Assembly: GCA_021824565.1 (NCBI GenBank)
Contig: JAKAKL010000116.1
Coordinates: 1-64,000 of the forward strand
Length of the DNA: 64,000 bases
Reading direction: 5' to 3'
Origin: Bacteroidota bacterium
GTDB lineage: Bacteria > Bacteroidota > Ignavibacteria > Ignavibacteriales > Ignavibacteriaceae
A model generated the notes under the pieces. That model did no database searches, was not told the origin of the DNA, and saw nothing but the letters and a program-made list of their open reading frames with translations. Position 1 is the stretch's first letter. The number at the start of each line of letters is the position of its first letter. This document shows positions 8,094 to 59,580 of the stretch, piece after piece. The translations under genes were made by a program, and so were the position numbers.

Positions 8094-9827
8094 TCAAATT
8101 TGAGTTTTTCTTTTAATTTTTCTATCAAAATATTTTGTATGCAGAATTTCATGAGCACAATAAGAATTGGGCTCGGTAAAAAATTCTTCATATAAAATTT
8201 TTACAGATTCATTCTCGTGCGATCTTCTATACGTCATATTGCTGTCTATTTGATAAAGCGCTTTCATTCGTTTCTGAATTTTATCATTTTTCTGGTGAAT
8301 AGGCTGTCCACCCCCGTTTACACATCCCCCGGGGCAGGTCATTACTTCTATAAAATGATATTTGGATGTTCCATTCTGAATGTCATCTATAATTGGTTTT
8401 ATATTTCCTATTCCATTCACGACAGCAAAATTTAATTCCATGTCGCTAATCTTAATCGAAATCTCTTTTATATTTTTATCGCCTCTAACCGGTTCAAGCT
8501 CAAGAGTTTCTAATTCTTTGCCGGTCAATTTATAATAAGCAGTTCTCAATGCCGCTTCCATTACGCCGCCGCTCGTACCAAATATTGCTGCAGCGCCGGT
8601 GGACTCACCCAAAGGATCGTCAAAATTGTCTTCCGGCAAATCATTAAATTCAATTCCCGCAAGCTTAAAAAATCTTGTAAGTTCTCTTGTGGTTAATACT
8701 GCATCTACATCTGCATAACTTTCTTCTTTCAATTCGCTTCTGCTCGATTCATATTTTTTAACGGTGCACGGCATTATTGAAACTACGAAAATATCTTTGG
8801 GATCAATTTCCATTTTTTTTGCATAATAAGTTTTTAGCACTGCTCCTTCCATTTCATGCGGCGATTTGCAGGTCGAAATATGCTCAAGGATTTCCGGTTT
8901 ATTATGCTCGGCATATTTTACCCAGCCGGGGCAGCAGCTTGTAAACATAGGCAGCTTTCCATTATTATTTATTCTATGGATTAACTCGGTTGCCTCTTCC
9001 ATAATTGTTAAATCAGCGGAGAAGTTAGTATCGAATACTTTATTAAATCCTAAACGCCTTAACCCTGTTATTAATTTACCTGTTACTTCTGTTCCCGGAG
9101 GCATATTATATTCTTCTCCCAAAGTTGCGCGCACTGCCGGAGCTATTTGAACTACAGTGAATTTCCTTTTGTCGTTCAAAGCAGCAGCAACTTCTTTCAT
9201 AGAGCTTTTTTCACGCAGCGCTGCTGTTGGACAAACTAAAATACACTGCCCGCACAAAATGCAGTCGCTGATATTAATTCCCTTATTATATGGAGTTGTA
9301 ACGGTGCTTAAAAAGCCGCGCTTTGTAAAATCTATTGCGCCTACCTTTTGTACTTCATGACATACGCGCACGCATCTTCCGCACAAAATACATTTTGCCG
9401 GATCTCTTTCGATTGATGCGCTTGAAATATCTATTGCATGATCTTTTTTTTCGCCTACATATCTATGTTCTCTCACACTGTATTTGTCGGATAAATCCTG
9501 CAGCTCGCAATTTTTATTTCTAACACAGACCAAACAGTCCTGAGGATGGTTCTCCACAAGAAGCTCAACTATCGTTTTTCTTGCGCGTCTTACGCGTGCA
9601 GAATTTGTTTCGACAGACATACCTTTAAAAACCGGATATGCACATGACGGAACTAAATTTCTTTGTCCTTCAACTTCTACAACACAAATTCTGCATGCTC
9701 CCGTTGGTGTTAAATCTTTTAGATGACACAACGTGGGAATATGAATTCCAACTGACTTCGCCGCGTCAAGAACCGACATTCCTTCTTCTGCTTTTATTGC
9801 GACATTATTTATTTTTAACTGAATCAT
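8094..9827 (-). CDS. hydA: [FeFe]-hydrogenase catalytic subunit (HydA of a HydABC-type complex)
   Basis: About 577 residues from the preferred start. N-terminal [2Fe-2S] ferredoxin domain (CHLKDLTPTGACRICVVEV), a His/Cys cluster site (HPQDCLVCVRNKNC), two [4Fe-4S] motifs (CILCGRCVRVC and CILCGQCILVC), then the H-cluster domain. All three H-cluster signatures are present: L1 TSCCPGW, L2 MPCTVKK, L3 CPGGCVNGGGQ. It reduces protons or oxidises H2, and with HydB/HydC probably couples this to NAD(H) and ferredoxin by flavin-based bifurcation. The track starts at 9875. I prefer the ATG at 9827 (MIQLKINN), which matches the family N-terminus, follows an AAAGGA, and avoids overlap with hydB. The maturases HydE, HydF and HydG are not in the window. 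Confidence 0.95.
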   Translation of the reverse strand: MIQLKINNVAIKAEEGMSVLDAAKSVGIHIPTLCHLKDLTPTGACRICVVEVEGQRNLVPSCAYPVFKGMSVETNSARVRRARKTIVELLVENHPQDCLVCVRNKNCELQDLSDKYSVREHRYVGEKKDHAIDISSASIERDPAKCILCGRCVRVCHEVQKVGAIDFTKRGFLSTVTTPYNKGINISDCILCGQCILVCPTAALREKSSMKEVAAALNDKRKFTVVQIAPAVRATLGEEYNMPPGTEVTGKLITGLRRLGFNKVFDTNFSADLTIMEEATELIHRINNNGKLPMFTSCCPGWVKYAEHNKPEILEHISTCKSPHEMEGAVLKTYYAKKMEIDPKDIFVVSIMPCTVKKYESSRSELKEESYADVDAVLTTRELTRFFKLAGIEFNDLPEDNFDDPLGESTGAAAIFGTSGGVMEAALRTAYYKLTGKELETLELEPVRGDKNIKEISIKISDMELNFAVVNGIGNIKPIIDDIQNGTSKYHFIEVMTCPGGCVNGGGQPIHQKNDKIQKRMKALYQIDSNMTYRRSHENESVKILYEEFFTEPNSYCAHEILHTKYFDRKIKRKTQI

Positions 9828-9852
9828 CTTTTCAGAATTTCCTTTTAAAACT

Positions 9853-11838
9853 TTAATTGACATTGATAGCTTCAAAGCGGCAGGACTCTACGCACATTCC
9901 GCATTTAATACATTTTTCTTCAACTATATAATGAGCTTGTCCTTTTTCACCAACAATTGCTCCCGAAGAACATTTTTTCAAACAAACGCCGCAGCCTGTA
10001 CAAACTCTATTGTCAATCGAGAACGTTAATAATTCTTTACAAACTCCCGAAGAACATTTTCTTTCATAAAGATGCTCTTCATATTCTTCTTTAAAGTATC
10101 TTAACCCGGAAAGAACTGGATTGGGAGCAGACTGCCCAAGACCGCAAAGTGAAGTATCGCGAATTACATCAGCTAATCTTTTTAAATGAATAATTCCTTT
10201 AAATCTTTGAAGTTGATCCAGCTTGTTTGCCGTTCTTTTATAGCTGTGTGGAATTCGTTCAATTATTTCGAGCATGCGTTTTGTCCCTTCCCTGCATGGA
10301 ACGCATTTGCCGCATGATTCATTCTGAATAAACGTAAGAAAAAATTTTGCCACGTCTACCATGCATGTTTCTTCATCCATAACAACGAAGCCGCCTGAAC
10401 CCATCATAGCTCCGGCATTTTTTAATGATTCATAATCTACTTGTGTCGACATAACACTGTACGGCAGACATCCGCCTGATGGACCCCCAATTTGAACAGC
10501 CTTAAACTTTTTGTTGTTGGGAATGCCGCCGCCAATATTAAACACAACATCTTCCAGTTTAATTCCCATCGGGACCTCAATTAAACCGGCGTTTTTAATA
10601 TTTCCGCTTAACGCAAAAACTTTTGTGCCTTTGCTTGATGCTGTTCCGATTGACGCAAACTTTTTCGAGCCGTTCAAGATTATGGAGGAAATATTAGCTA
10701 GAGTTTCGACATTATTAATTACAGTCGGCTTCCCCCACAAACCTGATATCGCAGGAAACGGCGGTCGGGGCTTAGGCATTCCTCTTTTTCCTTCTATCGA
10801 CGCGATCAAAGCTGTCTCTTCGCCGCATACAAAAGCGCCGGCTCCTTTTTTAATTTTTATTTCTAAACTGAAGCCGCTGTTGAGAATATTATTTCCAAGC
10901 AAACCATATTTTTTACATTGATCAATAGTATTTTGAAGTCGGCTGATCGCCAGCGGATATTCGGCTCTGCAATAAATATATGCTTTTGAAGCTCCAATCG
11001 CATACGCCGCGATAAGCATTCCTTCGACGACTCTGAACGGATCGCTTTCAAGCACAGAACGATCCATAAATGCTCCCGGGTCTCCTTCATCAGCATTACA
11101 TATTAAATATTTTTGTTCGGCTTTTTGATTGAAAGCAAGTTCCCACTTCTTGCCCGTCGGAAAGCCGGCGCCTCCTCTTCCTCTTAAACCGCTTTCTAAA
11201 ATTTCTCTAATTACGTCTTCGGATCTCAAAGCGCTAAAGACTTTAATCAAAGCTCTGAATCCTTTGTTTGAAATGTATGAGTCAATTGAGGTTGGATTAA
11301 TAACGCCGCAGTTTTCAAGAACTATTTTAAGCTGATGTTTGAAGAACGGTTCATTATGTATTGACGGAACCTCTTCCGAAGGTTCGCCGAATGTTCCAAG
11401 CAATTTCTCTTTATATATTTCTTTTTCAACCAGAGTCTTTTGAATCAGCTTTGGTACAATCTTAGGTGTTACTTCGCAATAAGAAATTCTATCTTTACCC
11501 GGAAGTTTAATATCTACTATAACCTCTCTTGCACAAAATCCGATACATCCGGTCGGTTCTATTATAGCTTTTAAATTTAATCTCTTTAATTCTTCATTGA
11601 CGGCATCTTCAACCTTTTGCGCGCCTGCAGCCAAGCCGCATGTTCCTTTCCCTACAAAGATGACCGGCAGATCATGGATCTCAAATTTTAATTCTTTATT
11701 GTAAGTCTTAATCTTTTCTTTACAGCTATCATTGTTGTGGCACTGCGCCCCCTCTGTACAGCATTTTATAAAAAGTTCGCAAGGTTTTTCAACAGTATGC
11801 CAGCACTCATTGCAGCATTTTTCAATAAAGCTGTTCAT
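9853..11838 (-). CDS. hydB: NAD(H)-binding flavoprotein subunit of the hydrogenase (HydB, NuoF-like)
   Basis: A 661-residue subunit. Residues 8-39 hold eight Cys in a zinc-finger-like cluster (CCNECW...PC...CC...C...C). A thioredoxin-like [2Fe-2S] domain follows (GTCGLAAGA, CIGFCARE). Then come the NuoF core with NADH/FMN sites (GRGGAGFPTGKKW, NADEGDPGAFMDR), the SLBB region and the NuoF [4Fe-4S] motif ESCGKCVPCREG. The C-terminus is a 2[4Fe-4S] ferredoxin domain (CTGCGVCLKKC, CIKCGMCVESC). It is the electron hub where NADH and ferredoxin meet the hydrogenase. It overlaps hydC by the ATGA junction and ends just before hydA, so the three are one operon. Confidence 0.95.
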   Translation of the reverse strand: MNSFIEKCCNECWHTVEKPCELFIKCCTEGAQCHNNDSCKEKIKTYNKELKFEIHDLPVIFVGKGTCGLAAGAQKVEDAVNEELKRLNLKAIIEPTGCIGFCAREVIVDIKLPGKDRISYCEVTPKIVPKLIQKTLVEKEIYKEKLLGTFGEPSEEVPSIHNEPFFKHQLKIVLENCGVINPTSIDSYISNKGFRALIKVFSALRSEDVIREILESGLRGRGGAGFPTGKKWELAFNQKAEQKYLICNADEGDPGAFMDRSVLESDPFRVVEGMLIAAYAIGASKAYIYCRAEYPLAISRLQNTIDQCKKYGLLGNNILNSGFSLEIKIKKGAGAFVCGEETALIASIEGKRGMPKPRPPFPAISGLWGKPTVINNVETLANISSIILNGSKKFASIGTASSKGTKVFALSGNIKNAGLIEVPMGIKLEDVVFNIGGGIPNNKKFKAVQIGGPSGGCLPYSVMSTQVDYESLKNAGAMMGSGGFVVMDEETCMVDVAKFFLTFIQNESCGKCVPCREGTKRMLEIIERIPHSYKRTANKLDQLQRFKGIIHLKRLADVIRDTSLCGLGQSAPNPVLSGLRYFKEEYEEHLYERKCSSGVCKELLTFSIDNRVCTGCGVCLKKCSSGAIVGEKGQAHYIVEEKCIKCGMCVESCRFEAINVN

Positions 11839-12359
11839 GCTAAATTCACCTCCGGCTGAGGTAAATTATCTTTTTTAGAAACTTTAGAATATTTTTTCAA
11901 AATATTAGGAATATCCTTTACAGAAATTCTGCCGTAATAATCCTCATTTACGGTGACGACAGGAGCGATGCTGCAAGCTCCGATGCAGTTAACTATTTCA
12001 ATTGTAAATTTTTTATCCCTTGTAGTTTCACCCGCTTTAATATTTAGCGCTGTTTCAATCGCAAATAGAATATTGGACGAGTTTTTTACATGACACGCTG
12101 TTCCTCTGCAAACCCGGATTATATTTTCACCCAGAGGAGTTAATCTAAATTGATTATAAAACGTTGCTACACCATAAATTCTGCTTAAAGGCATATCAAC
12201 AAAATCGGAAATATCCTGCAAAGCTGCTTCCGGCAAATATCCATATATAGATTGTATGTCTTGCAGCAAAGGTATTAAACTGCTTTTGTCTTTAGCTTCA
12301 TAATTCTTAAAAATATGTTCGTGCATCTTCTTCTCAAAATATCCATTCTTAATATTCAT
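11835..12359 (-). CDS. hydC: NuoE-like thioredoxin-fold [2Fe-2S] subunit (HydC)
   Basis: A 174-residue subunit of the hydrogenase, homologous to the 24-kDa NuoE subunit of complex I. An N-terminal helical bundle (LIPLLQDIQSIYGYLPEAAL) is followed by a thioredoxin-like fold with the four cluster ligands in CRGTACH and CIGACSIAP. It passes electrons to HydB. It is the first gene of the operon hydC-hydB-hydA-receiver and overlaps hydB by 4 nt (ATGA). The 144 bp upstream hold no clear TAnnTTTG promoter. Length and cysteine spacing are normal. Confidence 0.94.
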   Translation of the reverse strand: MNIKNGYFEKKMHEHIFKNYEAKDKSSLIPLLQDIQSIYGYLPEAALQDISDFVDMPLSRIYGVATFYNQFRLTPLGENIIRVCRGTACHVKNSSNILFAIETALNIKAGETTRDKKFTIEIVNCIGACSIAPVVTVNEDYYGRISVKDIPNILKKYSKVSKKDNLPQPEVNLA

Positions 12360-16390: not shown

Positions 16391-16770
16391 GGGTTATAGT
16401 TTTTATAAAAAGGATAGCCTTACGCATGCAACAAGGCATGGTTTTTATAAAAAGCATAGCCTTACGCATGCAACAGGGCATGGTTTTTATAAAAAGGATA
16501 GCCTTACGCATGCAGCAGGGCATGGTTTTTATAAAAAGGATAGCCTTACGCATGCAACAGGGTATGGTTTTTAAAAAAAGGATAGGCTCACACATGCGGA
16601 AGGGTATGGTTTATATAAAAAGTAAGCCTTACACACTGCGGAAGGATATGGTTTTTATAAAAAGTATAGCCTTACGCATGCGACAGGGCATGGTTTTTAT
16701 AAAAAGGACAGCCTTACGCACTGCGACAGGGCATGGTTTTTATAAAAAGGATAGCCTTACGCAGTGTAAA
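16391..16770. repeat. Tandem array A: 42-bp near-palindromic units on a 21-bp quantum
   Basis: About nine head-to-tail copies of a 42-bp unit. Each holds two palindromes, TTTTTATAAAAA and GCATGC, whose centres are exactly 21 bp apart all along the array. The two 21-bp halves are imperfect reverse complements of each other (14 of 21 positions), so the array reads nearly the same on both strands and both carry spurious ORFs (136 and 71 aa). Copies 2-4 and 7 are almost identical, copies 5 and 6 diverged, and copy 8 has a 1-bp insertion. It lies between ptsN and the T9SS protein gene. No unique spacers, so not CRISPR. Confidence 0.9.
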
Positions 16771-42515: not shown

Positions 42516-42977
42516 TTTGCCATTAGCAATGTGAGGTTAGCAGAAGGGATAATGCCGCTTGATATTGCCCACGGCAAGTCTGCACACCGCAGGATGTGAC
42601 TTGCACTCACACTAAAGACACTTGCACATCACCGAAGAAGACTTGCAGTAAACCGCATCACAATCGCACAACACCGAACGTGACTTGCACTCACACTAAG
42701 GACACTTGCACTTCACCGAAGAGCACTTGCAGTAAACCGCATCACAATCGCACAACACCGAACGTGACTTGCACTCACACTAAAGACACTTGCACATCAC
42801 CGAAGAACAATCGCAGTAAACCGCATCACAATCGCACAACACCGAACGTGACTTGCACTCACACTAAGGACGCTTGCACTTCATCGCAGAAGACTTGCAG
42901 CAGACAGCATCATATTCGTACATCACAAATTGTGACTTTCAATCACAGAATGAGGGTTTGTTAAGCAGCTACAGGGT
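42516..42977. repeat. Tandem array B: 84-bp higher-order units made of four 21-bp repeats
   Basis: The core (42600-42935) is four copies of an 84-bp unit. Each unit is four 21-bp subunits starting CTTGCA, CTTGCA, CTTGCA and ATCGCA, so the basic period is 21 bp with a higher-order period of 84. Degenerate 21-mers in the same register extend left to about 42516 and right to about 42977. A plus-strand ORF (122 aa, TCTHTKDTCTSPKK repeats) is a by-product of the 3-divisible period. It lies just after pncB. No spacers and no coding support. Confidence 0.9.
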
Positions 42978-44979: not shown

Positions 44980-47028
44980 ATGCCTTCAATTAAAAACAAT
45001 TTTCTATTGATGCTAACATCGCTTCTCTTTCTGTGCGGAATTATTTCGGTTTCTTATTGCCAGGAACAAGGTAATGACGAAATTGTAAAAAAAGATATGG
45101 ATACTACCGTCAGTCCGGCTGTAGATTTCTTTGAATACGCCGATGGCAATTGGCTGAAAAACACAGAAATACCGGCTGCATACTCCGGCTGGGGATCGTT
45201 TTATATTTTAGGAGATGAAAATCTTCATAAACTAAAAGACATTTTATCCAGCGTTGAAAAAGAGACCAATGTAAAAAAAGGCAGCAGCGAACAACTCGTC
45301 GGCGACTTTTATTATACAGGTATGGACAGCGCCGGCATTGAACAGCAAGGCTTTAAGCCGATTGAAAAAGATCTTGACGCTGTAAGTTCAATGAAAAATA
45401 TAAATGATTTTTATAAAGAACTTGTAAAAATTCAGATGGGTTATTCAAATCCTTTATTTGCATTCGGTTCTGGTCCGGACGCTAAAAACAGCAAGATGAA
45501 TATTGGACAATTGTTCCAGAGCGGGCTTGGCTTGCCGGACCGCGACTATTACCTTAAAGACGATGAAAACTCAAAAACAATACGCGAAGATTATCTTCAG
45601 CTTATCAAACATTCTTTTATGCTTGTTGGCTACGATTCAAATAAAGCCGCCAACTCTGCCGAAACAATATTAGCTCTCGAAACACAGCTTGCTAAGGCTT
45701 CTATGCCGCGCGTTGAAGAACGCGATCCGCATAAGATTTACCATAAGATGACTGTTAAAGAAATTATTGATCTCGCTCCGGATTTTAATTGGAACGAATA
45801 TTTCAAAATAAATGGCATCGCTAAACCTGGAGATATAAACGTTGCTCAGCCAGACTTTTTCAAAGAAGTGAATAACGTTATTAAAACTACTCCGCTAGAG
45901 ACTCTTAAAGAATATTTGAAGTGGAATATAATACGTACTGCTTCACCTTACCTAAGCACGCCTTTCGTTGAAGCTAATTTTAATTTCTACGGTAAAGTTC
46001 TTAACGGAACTAAAGAGATGCAGCCGAGATGGAAAAGAGTAATGGGAACTATCGACGGTCAAATCGGTATGGAACTTGGGAAACTTTTCGTTAAAAAATA
46101 TTTTCCGCCTTACGCAAAAAAGCGCGCGCTTGAATTAGTCCACAACTTAATGGCAGCTCTTAAAAATAGAATTGAAAAACTTGAGTGGATGAGTCCTGAA
46201 ACTAAAAAAGCAGCTTTAATAAAATTAGCTGCTTTCACTGTTAAAATCGGTTACCCGGATAAATGGAAAAGTTATAAAGGTCTTGACTTAAACAGAGAAT
46301 CATACTTTGGCAACGTACTAAATGCATCTATATTCAATACAAAAAAAGATTTGGCAAAGATTGGGAAACCAGTTGATAAAACCGAATGGGGCATGACTCC
46401 TCAAACTGTTAATGCTTATTATAATCCGCCTAACAATGAAATAGTTTTCCCGGCAGGTATTTTGCAGCCGCCTTTCTTTGATCCTAAGGCTGATGATGCA
46501 ATCAACTATGGCGGAATTGGCGCTGTTATCGGGCATGAAATGACCCACGGCTTTGATGATGAAGGCAGGCAATATGATGCCCAGGGAAACATGAAAGACT
46601 GGTGGACAAAACAGGATGGCGAAAATTTTAATAAGCGAGCAGAGAAAATAGTAGATCAGTTTAATAATTATGTCGCAGTCGATACTCTACATGTTAATGG
46701 AAAGTTAACGGAAGGAGAAAACATTGCTGATCTTGGCGGTATAAACATCTCTTTTGATGCATTTGAAAAAACCGCTGAGTACAAAAGCGGCAAGCCGATA
46801 AACGGATTTACTCCTGCGCAGAGATTTTTTCTATCGTTTGCAAACATCTGGAAAATAAAAAATCGCCCTGAAAGGTTAAGACTGCGTGTTAAAATCGATC
46901 CGCATTCTCCTGAACATTACCGGGTAGACGGTCCTTTAAGTAATACTCCGGCTTTTTGGAAAGCTTTTAATGTTAAACCTGGCGATCCAATGGAAATGCC
47001 AAAAGATAAAATGGTAAAAATCTGGTAA
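44980..47028 (+). CDS. M13-family zinc endopeptidase (neprilysin/PepO type)
   Basis: A 682-residue secreted metallopeptidase. A signal peptide (LLMLTSLLFLCGIISVSYC) with a possible lipobox-like SYC precedes the M13_N domain (DTTVSPAVDFFEYADGNWLK). The catalytic domain has HEMTH in VIGHEMTHGFDDEGRQYD and the third ligand in GENIADLGG, and ends with the family PEHYRVDGPLSNTPAFWKAF. It cleaves oligopeptides in the periplasm or at the surface. Normal length; monocistronic, with a strong terminator. Confidence 0.95.
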   Translation: MPSIKNNFLLMLTSLLFLCGIISVSYCQEQGNDEIVKKDMDTTVSPAVDFFEYADGNWLKNTEIPAAYSGWGSFYILGDENLHKLKDILSSVEKETNVKKGSSEQLVGDFYYTGMDSAGIEQQGFKPIEKDLDAVSSMKNINDFYKELVKIQMGYSNPLFAFGSGPDAKNSKMNIGQLFQSGLGLPDRDYYLKDDENSKTIREDYLQLIKHSFMLVGYDSNKAANSAETILALETQLAKASMPRVEERDPHKIYHKMTVKEIIDLAPDFNWNEYFKINGIAKPGDINVAQPDFFKEVNNVIKTTPLETLKEYLKWNIIRTASPYLSTPFVEANFNFYGKVLNGTKEMQPRWKRVMGTIDGQIGMELGKLFVKKYFPPYAKKRALELVHNLMAALKNRIEKLEWMSPETKKAALIKLAAFTVKIGYPDKWKSYKGLDLNRESYFGNVLNASIFNTKKDLAKIGKPVDKTEWGMTPQTVNAYYNPPNNEIVFPAGILQPPFFDPKADDAINYGGIGAVIGHEMTHGFDDEGRQYDAQGNMKDWWTKQDGENFNKRAEKIVDQFNNYVAVDTLHVNGKLTEGENIADLGGINISFDAFEKTAEYKSGKPINGFTPAQRFFLSFANIWKIKNRPERLRLRVKIDPHSPEHYRVDGPLSNTPAFWKAFNVKPGDPMEMPKDKMVKIW

Positions 47029-47489: not shown

Positions 47490-48821
47490 ATGACATCACT
47501 TAAAGTAATACGGTTAAATGTTATTACACTTTTTGCTGGGGTTTTTATTATACTGTTAAGCAATACAGGTTATTCTATACCAAGTTTTGCGAGACAGACA
47601 AATTTAGCTTGCAGCGCTTGTCATTATGTTTATCCCGAACTGACTCCGTTCGGCAGATTGTTCAAATTAAACGGTTATACAATGACAGGAATCGCTACGA
47701 TAAAATCGACATACAAAGAAGATAATACTAATCTTCAATTACTTAATTTTCTTCCTATTTCGGCAATGATTCAAGGCTCTCACAATTTAATTGCGAAGAC
47801 AGTTCCGGGCACACAAAATGATGTAACCGAATTCCCCCAGCAGTTTAGTCTTTTCGTTGCCGGGGCTATCAGCCCAAATTTCGGCTCATTTATTCAAGTA
47901 ACATATGATGACCAGTCCGGCGCATTTGGCTTGGACAATACCGATTTAAGGTTTGCCGATCATACAACTTTGTTTACGAATGATTTGCTATACGGAATTA
48001 GCTTAAATAATAATCCTACCGTTCAGGATGTTTGGAATACAACACCAGCCTGGGGATTTCCTTATGTCGGATCGGCGGTAGCACCTACGCCATCAGCTTC
48101 ACCGATGATTGCAGGTTTAGGCGGAAGCGTTTCAGGTCTCGGCGCTTATGCGTTGTATAATAATTTAGTGTATGGTGAATTCAGTTTGTACCATGTTACT
48201 AAACAAGGCGGACCTATTCCCGAGACTACATCTGATTCTACTATGACACTTGCAGGGTATGCACCGTATTGGAGGCTTGCTATTCAGCAGCAATGGGAAT
48301 CTGATTATCTTGAAATAGGAACATACGGAATGGCTTCACAATTTTATCCAACGGGCATTAGCGACAATGCTACAGATAAATATACGGACATTGGCTTTGA
48401 TGCTCAATATGAAAAAACATTTGACAGCGGAACACTTATTGCCCACACTACATATTTAACTGAGAAGCAAAATCTTGATGCTACTTATGCCGCAGGCGGT
48501 TCTGCAAATCCATCTTTAAAATTAAATTCGTTTAAGGTTGACGCAAGCTATAACCTTCCGGTTGGCGTCGCATTTTCTTTAGGTTATTTTACAACAAACG
48601 GCGATAACGATCCTATTATTTATGCTGCGAATACCAGCTTATCACCAAACAGCAGCGGTTTAACTGCTCAGGTAACGTATTTGCCATGGCTAAATACTCA
48701 ATTTGCCGTTCAGTACGTTGCTTACAATAAGTTCAACGGCAGCAGCAGCAATTACGACGGTACAGGCAGAAATGCTTCGGACAATAATACTTTGTATGTA
48801 GTGGGCTGGGTAGTATTTTAA
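47490..48821 (+). CDS. Cyc2-like fused monoheme cytochrome-porin (outer membrane)
   Basis: A 443-residue protein. A signal peptide is followed directly by IPSFARQTNLACSACHYVYP with one CxxCH haem site, then ELTPFGRLFKLNGYTMTG. This is the arrangement of Cyc2-type proteins, in which a small N-terminal cytochrome plugs an outer-membrane beta-barrel. The remaining 380 residues are rich in alternating aromatic/polar strands, Gly and Asn, and end in an aromatic residue (YVVGWVVF), as outer-membrane barrels do. Cyc2 carries electrons from extracellular Fe(II) inward; related proteins of unknown substrate are widespread, so iron oxidation is only one possibility. Two small monoheme cytochromes follow, likely periplasmic partners. 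Confidence 0.75.
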   Translation: MTSLKVIRLNVITLFAGVFIILLSNTGYSIPSFARQTNLACSACHYVYPELTPFGRLFKLNGYTMTGIATIKSTYKEDNTNLQLLNFLPISAMIQGSHNLIAKTVPGTQNDVTEFPQQFSLFVAGAISPNFGSFIQVTYDDQSGAFGLDNTDLRFADHTTLFTNDLLYGISLNNNPTVQDVWNTTPAWGFPYVGSAVAPTPSASPMIAGLGGSVSGLGAYALYNNLVYGEFSLYHVTKQGGPIPETTSDSTMTLAGYAPYWRLAIQQQWESDYLEIGTYGMASQFYPTGISDNATDKYTDIGFDAQYEKTFDSGTLIAHTTYLTEKQNLDATYAAGGSANPSLKLNSFKVDASYNLPVGVAFSLGYFTTNGDNDPIIYAANTSLSPNSSGLTAQVTYLPWLNTQFAVQYVAYNKFNGSSSNYDGTGRNASDNNTLYVVGWVVF

Positions 48822-48887
48822 TTGATATTGAAAAATATTTTAGTATATGATTAATTAAATAATTCAAAAACAACTTATGGAGAAATA

Positions 48888-49328
48888 ATGAAATCAACTT
48901 CAAGCTTAATTATTATTTTTGCGATAGGTCTTTTTGCTTTCCTTGGATTGACAGTTAATGTTCAAACAAGCGCCGCAAAGGGTTTATTGCAGGATTCTGT
49001 TAAAACTGAAAAGAAAGAAGTCAAAACAGAAACAACTGAAATCGATAAAAAACTTGCTAATGAAGGCAAAGGAATATTTAACAGCAAATGTTTTGCATGC
49101 CATAAACTCGATTCAAGATTAGTAGGTCCGCCTTTGAGAAATATTACTAAGACTCTCACACAGGAATATTTAACAAAGTACTTGCTTCACACGGCAGAAA
49201 TGCAGAAGACCGATCCTAAATTAAAAAAGTTAATAAAAGAATATAATGGCATACTAATGCCGGATCAAGGTCTGAATAAGAAACAGGCAAGCGCTGTAAT
49301 TGAGTACTTGCGCTCTGTTGAAAAATAA
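48888..49328 (+). CDS. Periplasmic monoheme c-type cytochrome
   Basis: A 146-residue protein. A signal peptide (LIIIFAIGLFAFLGLTVNVQ) is followed by a Lys/Glu/Thr-rich linker and a class I cytochrome domain with haem site CFACH in GIFNSKCFACHKLDSRLVG. The distal Met is probably in GILMPDQGLNK. It is paralogous to the next cytochrome (GPPLRNITKT and YLLHTAEMQK shared). It lies 66 bp after the cytochrome-porin gene with a terminator behind it, suggesting a two-gene unit. Confidence 0.88.
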   Translation: MKSTSSLIIIFAIGLFAFLGLTVNVQTSAAKGLLQDSVKTEKKEVKTETTEIDKKLANEGKGIFNSKCFACHKLDSRLVGPPLRNITKTLTQEYLTKYLLHTAEMQKTDPKLKKLIKEYNGILMPDQGLNKKQASAVIEYLRSVEK

Positions 49329-49351
49329 AAATACTTAGCCCTAAAAAAATG

Positions 49352-49377
49352 AAGGCGGCACTCAAAGCCGCCTTTTA
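49352..49377 (+). terminator. Intrinsic terminator after the first small cytochrome gene
   Basis: AAGGCGGC / GCCGCCTT, 8-bp GC-rich stem, 7-nt loop, followed by TTTATTAT. It lies 24 bp after the stop. Confidence 0.8.
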
Positions 49378-49588
49378 TTATCCATAGTCCTCTCTAACTT
49401 CATATTGAGTAATCTCACACCGTAACTTTTAACACAAATAAATTCTTGCCAAGCTAATTTGAAATTTTTATAATTGGCGGGCAAAAAACTTAGGTTTTGT
49501 CTTTATACTCTAGCATAAAAGAAGAATTGCACTACTAATTATGTAATTGTCAAATTCAAATTTCCTGCGGCAATTACTTGGAGAAAAA

Positions 49589-50092
49589 ATGAAAAAGATT
49601 TTTACAGTATTTATTTTGTTAGCGCTGACAAGTATTTCCTGCTCGCGCAAAAAATATGATGTATACCAGCCGGCACCCGAACAAGATCAGTCAACACAGC
49701 AGGTACAGCAAAGCAGTACAAATCAGACAGTTCAACAAACAATCGCTGCGTACAAATATCCTGACGATAATGGCATTGGACCTATCAGTAATTTTTCTCC
49801 AGGTCCTCTCGATCCGAAATTAGTAAGTGAAGGTAAAAATATTTTCAACACAAAATGTATCGCATGCCATGATTTGGATCAGAAGAAAATTGGTCCGCCA
49901 TTAAGAAACATCACGAAGACCAACACTCCCGCTTTTATAATGAATTATCTTTTAAACACTACAGAAATGCAAAAGAAAGACCCGATCCTCGAGAAGTTAG
50001 TTGCACAATATAAAATCCTTATGCCGGATCAGCAACTAACAAAAGAAGACGCTATGGCAGCGTTAGATTATTTCCGTTCTGTAGAAAAATAG
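49589..50092 (+). CDS. Lipoprotein monoheme c-type cytochrome
   Basis: About 167 residues from the ATG at 49589, which has GGAG 7 nt upstream; the track's earlier start adds 14 residues. The signal peptide ends in a lipobox-like TSISC, so the protein is probably lipid-anchored. A Gln/Thr/Ser-rich linker of about 50 residues leads to the cytochrome domain with haem site CIACH in IFNTKCIACHDLDQKKIGPP and likely Met ligand in KILMPDQQL. It is a paralogue of the cytochrome upstream. The flexible linker would let the haem reach across the periplasm. Confidence 0.87.
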   Translation: MKKIFTVFILLALTSISCSRKKYDVYQPAPEQDQSTQQVQQSSTNQTVQQTIAAYKYPDDNGIGPISNFSPGPLDPKLVSEGKNIFNTKCIACHDLDQKKIGPPLRNITKTNTPAFIMNYLLNTTEMQKKDPILEKLVAQYKILMPDQQLTKEDAMAALDYFRSVEK

Positions 50093-50213: not shown

Positions 50214-50513
50214 TTAAAGGCGTTCTACCTTTTTCTTGATAATCAGTCCCTCTTTTACTACTTCTTTTAGGTGAGGAAGAATGGGATTTATTTTTTCTTC
50301 CTCATCAACGAATAGAATCATTATTGGACCTTCATCAACATTGCCGATCTTCCGCGGATGATGCAGATGATGCTTATGCCCGTAGCCTTCGATTGCCGCA
50401 AACATCGAAGCTCCATTAATATTATGATGCATTAAATATCTCATTATATATTCATGCATAGATTCTTCATTAAAAAGATCGCCCTCGTCAAGAAAAATTT
50501 GTACTTCGAGCAT
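50214..50513 (-). CDS. DUF190 protein (PII-like fold)
   Basis: A 99-residue protein of the DUF190 family, which has a ferredoxin-like/PII-like fold. The family core is HEYIMRYLMHHNINGASMFA followed by GYGHKHHLHH, with a later IMILFVDEEEKINPILPHL. The His-rich loop could bind metal. Often found beside CrcB fluoride channels or transporters, but no crcB is here; the cytochromes and CusABC-type pump flank it. Function unproven. Confidence 0.85.
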   Translation of the reverse strand: MLEVQIFLDEGDLFNEESMHEYIMRYLMHHNINGASMFAAIEGYGHKHHLHHPRKIGNVDEGPIMILFVDEEEKINPILPHLKEVVKEGLIIKKKVERL

Positions 50514-51517: not shown

Positions 51518-54500
51518 TTAATTTGATAATTGTTGATAGTCGTTATTTATCTTTATTTTCTTTTCAACTAAAATATATATTGAAGGAAGAGTAAGCAAAG
51601 TCAATATAAGTGCCGTGCACAATCCTCCTACAATCACCGTCGCAAGCGGTCTTTGTATATCCGAGCCAATGCCAGTTGCGCGCGCAGCGGGAATTAGACC
51701 GAGCAAAGCTAAAAGCATTGTCATTAAGTTGGGTCGAAGCTGAATCATAGCTGCTTTATGAGCGGCTTCTTTTACACTTAAGCCATCATCTTCAATCAAC
51801 CTGTTAGCTCTTGATACAAATAGAACTCCTGCAATAATCGACACGCCGAACAAAGAAATAAATCCTACGCCGGCAGAAACATTGAAGTTGTAACCGCGAA
51901 TCAGCAAAGCCAGCATTCCTCCAATAAGCGCAAATGGAATGCTCGACATTGCAACCATTACGTGTCTGACATTTTTGTACATCGAAAATAAAATTAAAAA
52001 TATTATTAATATTGTTAAAGGTATAACTACGGCTAATCGTTTGCCTGCGCGCGCTAAATTTTCAAACTGTCCTCCCCATTCAATTGAATATCCTTTAGGC
52101 AAATGAATTGCCGCATCAACCTTTTTCTGAGCTTCAGCAACAAAGCCGCCCTGATCTCTTCCGCGGATATTCGTCCTTACAGAGATTTGCCGCTCGCCGT
52201 TTTCTCTTTGTATTATAGTCGGTCCATCGACAAGACTAACAGAAGCAAGCTGCGACATAGGAATGCGCGCACCGGTTGGAGACGCTACCAGCATTTGCTG
52301 AACGGCTTCAATCGAATTTCGGTACAGCGGAGCATAGCGAACCACAATATCAAATCTTCTACCCTTTCGATCATACAATTGGCTGATCGCTTTCCCTCCG
52401 ATTGCCGCTTCAATCATCTGTTGAATATCGCTTACATTTATTCCAAATCTTGCCGCAGCGTTCCTATTAATTCTAACCGTCAACTGCGCCTGGTCGCCTT
52501 CCTGCTCTATACCTGATTCACTTGAACCAGGAATTTTTCTGATGACTGATAAAACAGTATCCGCTTCCTTCCGCATAAAGTCTAAATCTTCGCCGTTGAT
52601 TAATACAGCAAGATCGGCAACGCTGCCTGTTACTGCTTCCGTTACGTTATCAAGAATCGGCTGTGAAAATGAAAACTCCGCCCCAGGCACGGCTTGCTCA
52701 AGTTCATTTTTCATTTTTAATAACAATTCTTCTTTCGAAGTGTCGCTTATCCAGCTAGAATAATTTTTTAGCCCAACCAATATCTCGAGACGATTCGGAC
52801 CATAAGGATCGGTACCATCATCGTTCCTGCCCAATTGAGTAAGTACAACATTAACCTGTTTATGATTGCTTATAACTTGCCTAATAGTAGTACAATATTT
52901 TGCAGCATCATTTAATGTAATTCCAACCGGGAAAAAGCATCTTATGTTGAAAGCTCCTTCATCAAGTTCAGGTAGAAACTCTGTTCCAATGTTATGAACT
53001 CCGATCAACACTACAATAATTACAATTGCAAATGCGGAAGCTACAGTAGATATTGCATGGCGTGTGAAAAACGAAACTGTCTTTTCATATTTTTTTTCAA
53101 GCCAATGGTAAACAGGGTTGTGCCATTCTATTTTGCCTGGATTTTCAGACTCAAAATATTTTCTGTATATCATAGTCATAAAAACAGGAATAGCAGTTAG
53201 CGCTAAAATCATCGAGCCTAAAATCGCAAACGAAAGCGTATATGCCATCGGTGAAAAAAGTTTTCCTTCGACTCTCTGGAAAGAAAATATCGGAAGATAC
53301 GCAAGAATAATAATTGCGATTGAGAAAAATATTTCGCGTCCGACTTCCTGAGCTGAAGTTAAAGTAAATCGTAATATCCCCTGCTTCTTTTCCTCAGGCG
53401 TAGCATCGCGGTAACGCCGCATAATATTCTCAACCATAACTACCGCACCGTCTACAATTATTCCGAAGTCAATTGCGCCGAGTGATAAAAGGTTAGCGGG
53501 AATTCCAGTCAGCTTCATCATCGAAAAAGCGAAGAGCAGCGAAATTGGGATTGTTGTTGCAACAATAAGCGCCGAACGCACGCTGCCGATAAAAAATATA
53601 AGCACAATAATTACAATCGAAAAACCTTCAAACAAAGTTCTCGACACGGTATCGATTGTATATTTAACAAGCTTGCTGCGGTCGTAGGTAATTGTTAGAT
53701 GAACACCTTCGGGCAGAACATTTTCATTTATTTGCTTTACTTTTTCTTTTAGTGCGTCAATAACATCTGAAGGATTTTCGCCTCGGCGCATTGCAATCAA
53801 TCCTTGTATACTGGAATTTACATCAACTCGAGTAGAATCATTCTGAAGAGTGTATCCTAAAATTCCAGTCGGCTGCGAAGGGATTTCTTCAACCGAAGCA
53901 ACATCCCGTATAAAGATTGGTACGCCGTTGACCGATTTTAATACTATGTTCCCTATATCTTCTTTACTCCGAATAGTGCCAATACCGCGCACCACAAAGC
54001 CCTGCTCGCCTCTTCTAATTATATTGCCGCCGGTATTAATATTGTTTGCGCGGATTGCGTCTATCAGATTTTGCAGCGTTAGATTATATCTGAATAAATT
54101 TTCCGGAGTAGTGATGACTTGATACTGCTTTACAAGTCCGCCAAAGTTTACAACGTCGGCAATGCCCGGAACTTGAAGCAGCCTGGGAATTATTTCCCAG
54201 TCCTGCAGTGTTCTTAGCTGCATCGGTGTATAGCGGTCCGTCGCTTGAATTACATACCTGAAGATTTCATCCACCGGTCCGGTCAATGGACCGAGAGTAG
54301 GCTGAACTCCATCAGGCAGGACTGCATCATTTAATTTTTCAAGCACCTGCTGACGTGCGAAATAATCGTCTGTTCCATCTTCAAAAGTTAGGTCAATTAC
54401 CGAAAGTCCGAAAATAGTTTTTGATCTTCTATCAATAACTCTGGGAACACCGTTCAATGCGCGTTCAAGAGGAAGAGTAACTTGCTGCTCAACGTCCTGC

Positions 54501-54673
54501 GCTGCCTGACCGGGATATGTAGTAATAACTTCCACCTGTGTATCTCCAATATCGGGATACGCTTCTTTTTTAAGCACCGTCCATGACCAAATACCGGTTA
54601 TAACAACAGCTACAACAATTGTTATGGTGGTTAGTCTTTGGCTAAGAGCAAATCCGAGTAATCTGCGAATCAT
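51518..54673 (-). CDS. Heavy-metal efflux RND permease (CusA/CzcA family)
   Basis: A 1051-residue inner-membrane RND pump with twelve transmembrane helices and two large periplasmic loops. It starts [16 protein letters not shown] and has the HME-type TM4 motif [22 protein letters not shown], whose acidic residues relay protons. [14 protein letters not shown] and the late [17 protein letters not shown] are also standard. It exports metal cations (Cu/Ag or Co/Zn/Cd) by proton antiport with the adaptor and outer-membrane factor encoded upstream. Methionine pairs typical of CusA could not be placed with certainty, so the metal is undecided. Confidence 0.94.
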
Positions 54674-59042: not shown

Positions 59043-59580
59043 AAAAGCAGTATTACTATTATCAAAAGAAAAATTTCTTTAGGTAGAAGCAATATTTCTT
59101 TTTTTAGAAATGACATTTCTTTAATGAGAAGTAGTATCTCTTTCATCGAAAGCAGCGTTTCTTCTTTAAGAAGCATTATCTCTTTCATCAGAAAAAGCAT
59201 TTCTTTAATAAAAAGCAATATTTCTTTCATAAGAAGAAGCATTCCTTCAGCAAGAAGCAATATTTCTTTCATAAGAAGAAGCATTACTTCGGCGAGAAGC
59301 AATATTTCTTTTATAAGAAGAAGCATTTCTTTTGTGAGATGCAGTATCTCTTTCTTTGGAAGCAACATTTTTTTAATGATAAGCAATATCTCTTTCATCA
59401 GAAGCAGCATTTTTTTAATGAAAAACAATATTCCTTTTGAAACAGAAGATGTTTCTTCCAGCAAGAGCAATGTACTTTCCATCCAGAGGATTTATCCTTC
59501 CTTTGTCAGAAATATTTCATCTCTTGAAAGGGAAATTCCTTCTTCGGAAGCAATTTTAGCTTGTTTTCGCATCTTCTGAA
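59043..59580. repeat. Tandem array C: about 25 degenerate 21-bp repeats
   Basis: Successive 21-mers in unbroken register from 59043, of consensus AGAAGCAATATTTCTTTCAT plus one base. Neighbouring repeats alternate between two types in the middle (59211-59340), giving a local 42-bp period. Later copies decay. Both strands are open: the plus strand gives SNISFIRRSI-type ORFs, the minus strand leucine/lysine heptads (LLLMKEI). It fills the space between the DUF4395 and ferredoxin genes. No codon-level constraint or Shine-Dalgarno supports a protein. Confidence 0.88.

Follow-up and report, generated by a model that had tools for sequence, protein, structure and literature searches.

The question raised by this locus is whether three adjoining genes of an uncultured Ignavibacteriales bacterium form an entry point for electrons at the outer membrane and, if so, which donor and which partner proteins would be involved. 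The genes lie in a 64,000-nucleotide stretch of contig JAKAKL010000116.1, referred to here as the window. An earlier note, made from the sequence alone, had proposed an outer-membrane electron-transfer module composed of a Cyc2-like cytochrome-porin and two monohaem cytochromes. Cyc2 proteins combine a small c domain and a 16-strand barrel in one chain (PMC8406198), and the family itself is well described, whereas the window branch in Ignavibacteriales-type Bacteroidota is largely unstudied. All three genes were recovered where the note had located them (47490-48821, 48888-49328 and a third ending at 50092, all on the + strand), and the features of the locus are as follows.

44980..47028, + strand: M13 family peptidase gene, upstream of the module (domain match; synteny)
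47490..48821, + strand: cyc2-like gene for a predicted outer-membrane monohaem cytochrome fused to a porin, 443 aa (sequence, homologue alignment, AlphaFold2, Foldseek, profile scores)
47610..47624, + strand: CSACH haem c attachment motif, residues 41-45, in PSFARQT-NLA-CSACH-YVY-PEL (sequence; invariant C41, C44 and H45)
47766..47768, + strand: Met93 codon, start of predicted barrel strand 1 (conservation; strand position from the AlphaFold2 model)
48888..49328, + strand: monohaem c-type cytochrome, 146 aa, CFACH at 49089-49103, predicted soluble periplasmic (PF00034, E 8.7e-13; same-place orthologues)
49352..49374, no strand assigned: GC-rich hairpin in the gap from gene 2 to gene 3, probably a (bidirectional) terminator (hairpin listing and inspection by eye)
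49589..50092, + strand: monohaem c-type cytochrome, 167 aa, CIACH at 49856-49870, probable lipoprotein (PF00034, E 8.6e-10)

The published Cyc2 signature comprises PXFAR[Q/K][T/Y], one CXXCH, PXL 4 residues downstream, a length of >365 aa and a porin domain (PMC8406198); the full motif is AXPXFAR[Q/K][T/Y], 5 residues upstream of CXXCH, of which the shorter form is used for screening. In the 443-aa window protein the signal peptide is followed directly by IPSFARQTNLACSACHYVYPEL, and the C-terminus reads ...WVVF, with Phe as the last residue, which is the layout that had been claimed. SIPSFARQT precedes CSACH, so that the first A of the full motif is replaced by S and the screening form is retained, and CSACH-YVY-PEL places PXL at the required distance from the single CXXCH. 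Structure prediction had been suggested as a check, with a barrel as the expected outcome, and the AlphaFold2 model (57-sequence alignment; mean pLDDT 87.9, pTM 0.84) contained 16 long strands, the first at residues 90-101 and the last at 434-442. Three short N-terminal helices surround the CxxCH (residues 32-60; block pLDDT about 77-92); as in Cyc2, this part would be the putative haem plug of the periplasmic barrel opening. Foldseek matched the model best to 16-strand general porins of the PDB (Omp-Pst2, Omp32 and OmpF, E down to 5.5e-9), while the protein had no family match in Pfam or NCBIfam and no PDB sequence match in either single-sequence or profile search. A 16-strand barrel is therefore a confident prediction, and the protein would presumably be located in the outer membrane.

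The haem motif was then considered for its conservation. Residues P31, F33, R35, Q36, C41, C44, H45, P49 and L51 were invariant across 57 homologues from several phyla, which rules out the chance occurrence of a CxxCH inside a porin. Met93 was the sole nearly invariant His or Met besides H45 (67 of 68 sequences in the lineage of the window protein); it is absent from both Cluster 1 (Chlorobium-type) and FARKY-type proteins, and may be regarded as a candidate sixth haem ligand. Estimates of dN/dS were about 0.04-0.05 where dS, which is close to saturation, could be computed, and these alignments point to strong purifying selection on the porin-cytochrome. The single fused haem and the 16 strands also ruled out a decahaem porin complex of the MtoAB/PioAB/MtrAB kind, which likewise transfers electrons across an outer-membrane barrel but does so with 26 strands and a separate decahaem cytochrome (PMC8406198).

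Placement within the family was examined using a profile of the clade of the window protein (A2), which contained neither Cyc2 copy of the gammaproteobacterial genome G469, and which was scored against all collected sequences. Scores were about 570-708 bits for clade members, 477 bits for a Caballeronia plasmid copy and 437 and 435 bits for the two G469 copies, compared to 70-83 bits for Chlorobium-type Cyc2 from seven genomes and 52-67 bits for the FARKY type of other Ignavibacteria. The Chlorobium-type sequences served as proxies for Cluster 1, the FMO protein being present in all seven genomes that supplied them, and membership of Cluster 1 was ruled out by these scores. The match of the profile to the G469 rusticyanin-operon Cyc2 extended over the full length (435.5 bits, E 9e-133). 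This operon was found by searching for rusticyanin (TIGR03095) across 369 Gammaproteobacteria, and G469 was the only one of the four best rusticyanin genomes with a Cyc2 match. On one strand it carries cyc2, a cupredoxin-like gene (by eye, without a Pfam match), coxA, ctaA, ctaB, rusticyanin (136 bits, slightly under the cut-off of 146.7) and two SCO-like genes. The rus contig of genome G413, another of the four, starts at a cupredoxin-like gene, and any cyc2 upstream would therefore be cut off. A match on an Acidithiobacillus ferrooxidans plasmid (CP084173.1) duplicates the Acidiphilium cryptum match (NC_009469.1) in query span (36-443), identity and score, and was set aside as a reference for the Cyc2 of A. 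ferrooxidans.

In the phylogenetic inference the window lineage joined rusticyanin-operon Cyc2, apart from Chlorobium. The joining branch had an SH-aLRT of only 81 and the branches were long, and the bit scores are consequently given more weight than the tree. The phylogeny that had been called for suggests kinship with an electron-transfer family, the rus-operon Cyc2, and a position outside Cluster 1. The window protein appears to group with the lineage that includes rusticyanin-operon Cyc2; as proxies took the place of Acidithiobacillus Cyc2, Mariprofundus Cyc2 (M. ferrooxydans) and Leptospirillum Cyt572, the label of Cluster 2 is one that we infer.

Compared with rus-operon Cyc2 (the Acidithiobacillus/Acidiferrobacter/Acidihalobacter type, which we take to be Cluster 2 of McAllister and Keffer), the window protein shows full-length homology, at 36-38% identity to the G469 copies, and has in common the haem motif and the downstream electron carriers, with a barrel that is 16-stranded by prediction. 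However, these carriers are two monohaem class I cytochromes rather than a dihaem Cyc1, no rusticyanin or cox genes adjoin the window gene, and the host belongs to the Bacteroidota. Cluster 1 Cyc2 (Chlorobium, Zetaproteobacteria and Gallionellaceae) is also a fused cytochrome-porin with FARQT...CxxCH...PxL, but its identity over aligned columns is only about 21%, its CxxCH and PxL are one residue further apart, and it lacks a Met at position 93. The cytochrome-porins of the FARKY type in other Ignavibacteria, which may be Cluster 3, have a short CxxCH domain, 380-400 aa and a terminal Phe, yet differ in the FARKY motif itself, in the lack of K59 and Met93, and in lineage.

Two small cytochrome genes follow the porin-cytochrome gene. 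The first begins 66 bp downstream, and its orthologue holds the same position in same-genus loci. The second is likely to start at ATG 49589, with an alternative TTG at 49547 further upstream and a confirmed end at 50092. Its Cys18 (codon 49640-49642) follows a signal peptide, in TSISC, and is conserved among orthologues, and its linker is rich in Gln, Pro and Thr. The earlier note had described one soluble and one lipid-anchored cytochrome; the 146-aa protein is indeed predicted to be a soluble periplasmic carrier, and the 167-aa protein is a probable lipoprotein, whose residue at -3 before Cys18 departs from the classical lipobox. The two proteins, both of which match PF00034, are 60% identical over 95 aa and are accordingly paralogous, as had been stated. 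The hairpin between their genes was listed on the - strand only (8 pairs, 6 GC); inspection by eye shows a palindrome flanked on each side by a T run, that of the + strand included, and the third gene may therefore be a separate transcription unit. The M13 peptidase gene upstream keeps its synteny in close relatives and does not clearly belong to the electron-transfer module. On the other side, a DUF190 (P-II-like) gene at 50214-50513 lies between the module and a CzcA/CusA-type heavy metal efflux RND gene (51518-54673, - strand).

A scan of a genome collection that covers 84,980 species, with a single genome per species, yielded at least 520 relatives of the porin-cytochrome. The best 80 of these came from Bacteroidota (including Ignavibacteriales, Prolixibacteraceae and Flavobacteria), Gemmatimonadota, and Beta- and Gammaproteobacteria, together with single Acidobacteria and Nitrospirae MAGs; the nearest among them include MAGs with the isolate names FK, BP, WY and DBS. 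Within the phylum, 52 of 198 genomes had some match, mostly short and N-terminal only. A full-length gene was present in 11 of the 12 other same-genus genomes, one of which has only a 58% identical type, and six further genera of the family gave no match or weak partial matches. In two loci (L066 and L084) two Cyc2-like genes stand in direct tandem.

The gene neighbours bear on whether the protein belongs to electron transfer at all. It could be an ordinary porin-like protein or a redox sensor, with a structural or signalling haem and cytochromes adjacent by coincidence, and in the same host a PAS/Cache histidine kinase, a sigma-54 response regulator and a receiver protein are encoded upstream of a paralogue (57% identical; within G000 C71:1-4111), as might be expected of a sensor. 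However, among 58 loci in which the porin-cytochrome gene was called, 31 have a small same-strand CxxCH gene adjoining it, compared with 1 of 157 more distant genes of those loci that served as controls, which is far over background, although about half of the relatives have no cytochrome directly adjoining. The pairing with respiratory complexes is likewise recurrent, and the haem motif is invariant, which makes a porin or sensor role of this kind highly improbable.

The respiratory complexes are of two kinds. Rieske and cytochrome b-c genes occur at loci L048, L054 and L108 of relatives. In the close relatives L048 and L052 (82-83% identical) the gene for the first cytochrome is followed by those for a Rieske protein and for a fused cytochrome b-c. 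At L048 the next gene encodes the orthologue of the window lipoprotein cytochrome. The Rieske and b-c genes are absent at L044, L051, L053 and the window. Other relatives have genes in the order of QrcABCD; at L058 QrcB was the best NCBIfam match, at 237 bits and under the cut-off of 440. In some relatives plastocyanin-like (PF00127) or dihaem cytochrome genes adjoin the porin-cytochrome, an arrangement that, by analogy, recalls the order cyc2-cyc1-cup of rus operons (PMC10654088). A dihaem protein of the photosynthetic reaction centre cytochrome family is encoded downstream of the module at L048:9324-10514 and L053:8824-9969 (PF02276, tested for the L048 copy).

The second copy in the host genome has a neighbourhood of the Qrc-like kind. 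Downstream of the paralogue, contig C71 encodes a monohaem cytochrome with 40% identity to the product of gene 2, then a pentahaem protein, and it breaks off after the first part of a molybdopterin protein; contig C119 (C119:9185-14465) ends with the remainder of a molybdopterin protein. The stretch TIPFIVSFSSFVDETSTFAN of this protein is common to both contigs (loci L040 and L132), and C71 and C119 therefore very probably join into one continuous region. The genes that come after that of the molybdopterin protein encode FeS and NrfD proteins, a small membrane protein, a four-CxxCH cytochrome and a protein judged by eye to be cupredoxin-like; no Pfam copper domain was found in this last protein, and its L054 counterpart has only a sub-threshold PF00127 match. 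L058 has the same gene order. From gene content and order the set can be called Qrc-like. Qrc complexes are known for menaquinone reduction. Elsewhere in the genome, a caa3-type oxidase adjoins an ACIII-like cluster on contig C28.

These complexes could also serve a flow of electrons outwards: drawn from the quinone pool by bc, ACIII or Qrc-like complexes, electrons would pass to cytochrome c and on to an external acceptor, for instance Fe(III), humics, minerals or partner cells. Quinol:cytochrome c oxidoreductases adjoin the gene in relatives, a quinone-linked complex beside the gene would fit export too, and Ignavibacteriales are reported to carry genes for both iron oxidation and iron reduction (PMC8478452). 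Nevertheless, characterised Cyc2 proteins oxidise Fe(II) (PMC8406198), one haem in a narrow pore would be poorly suited to solid acceptors, and the direction for which Qrc complexes are recognized is the opposite one. We consider export to be quite unlikely.

From the haem motif, the homology, the gene neighbours and the conservation, all of which can be read in the sequence, we infer the donor, the direction and the partner proteins of the module. That the module is a Cyc2-type entry point for electrons, through which a dissolved donor (most likely Fe(II)) would supply periplasmic cytochromes, is in our estimation fairly probable, and an electron-transfer module with periplasmic cytochrome partners, as originally proposed, is supported by relatives that belong to an electron-transfer family. 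The 16-strand barrel of the porin-cytochrome would span the outer membrane, and its monohaem c domain would lie at the periplasmic end. A dissolved one-electron donor would enter the pore and reduce the haem, and the 146-aa periplasmic cytochrome, probably together with the lipid-anchored one, would take the electron onward, possibly to oxygen through the caa3-type oxidase. At the second copy, the pentahaem, Mo, FeS and NrfD proteins would form a complex of the Qrc/ACIII kind that passes electrons to or from the menaquinone pool. As there are two Cyc2-kind copies, each beside small electron carriers, the host probably takes electrons from external dissolved iron or a similar donor.

The donor need not be iron, and the Keffer paper treats function as uncertain away from the characterised Cyc2 members. 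Uptake from Mn(II), reduced sulfur, organic donors, an electrode or a partner cell would accord with the occurrence of Cyc2 homologues in bacteria that are not known as iron oxidisers and with their proposed role in Mn(II) lithotrophy (PMC9040806). Among the relatives, L069 comes from a Melioribacter MAG whose name refers to a Mn culture. The closest relatives, on the other hand, bear names (FK, BP, WY and DBS) that seem to resemble those of acid-mine-drainage sampling sites, and the protein is related in sequence to the Cyc2 of rusticyanin operons. A donor other than iron is thus unlikely, and Fe(II) uptake is the reading that we retain.

RuBisCO was not found in the genome, and autotrophy by the CBB cycle, the one carbon-fixation route covered, was accordingly rejected. 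The host is therefore more likely to be a heterotroph that would supplement its energy by electron uptake than a CBB autotroph. It had also been remarked that such a module would be notable beside a hydrogenase. The window does encode an [FeFe] hydrogenase trimer of the HydABC type (NADH-linked, possibly bifurcating; 8097-12359, - strand), but this lies 35 kb from the module and is unlinked to it, and a connection between the two was rejected. Three tandem arrays were also observed in the window: a 42-bp unit in 8.7 copies at 16399-16763, with one frame open (LRRVIVFIKRIALRMQQGMVFIK...), an 84-bp unit in 4.2 copies at 42596-42947, encoding a Cys/His/Thr-rich repeat (VTCTHTKDTCTSPKSTCSKPHHNRTTPN), and a third at 59043-59438 with 42-bp periodicity (42/84/126) and one frame open, so that the periods of all three arrays are multiples of 42.

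Cyc2 in Ignavibacteriales had already been reported from a deep mine, using FeGenie (PMC8478452), and the novelty is therefore smaller than the earlier note implied. As far as the literature examined goes, two aspects appear to be new: that the window type seems to sit with the rus-operon lineage and not with the Chlorobium or FARKY type, and that a Cyc2-like gene is found paired with bc and Qrc-like complexes. More tentatively, and with a fair measure of doubt, it is possible that these genes represent a distinct Cyc2 branch of Bacteroidota and Ignavibacteriales, in which monohaem cytochromes would wire the porin to a Qrc-like menaquinone reductase or to Rieske/cytochrome b for regulated Fe(II) uptake in mostly heterotrophic bacteria, the haem being ligated by Met93 of the barrel instead of a residue of the cytochrome domain.

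In summary, the Cyc2-like proteins of Ignavibacteriales comprise at least two very different types, and a marker search that lumps them together would therefore mislead. The near-invariant Met93 offers a single-residue test of haem attachment, and the gene pairs name candidate periplasmic partners, which are the least known step of Cyc2 pathways. If the uptake reading is true, common sediment and mine-water bacteria that are regarded as heterotrophs could use dissolved iron, and iron oxidisers would extend beyond the known neutrophilic and acidophilic groups.
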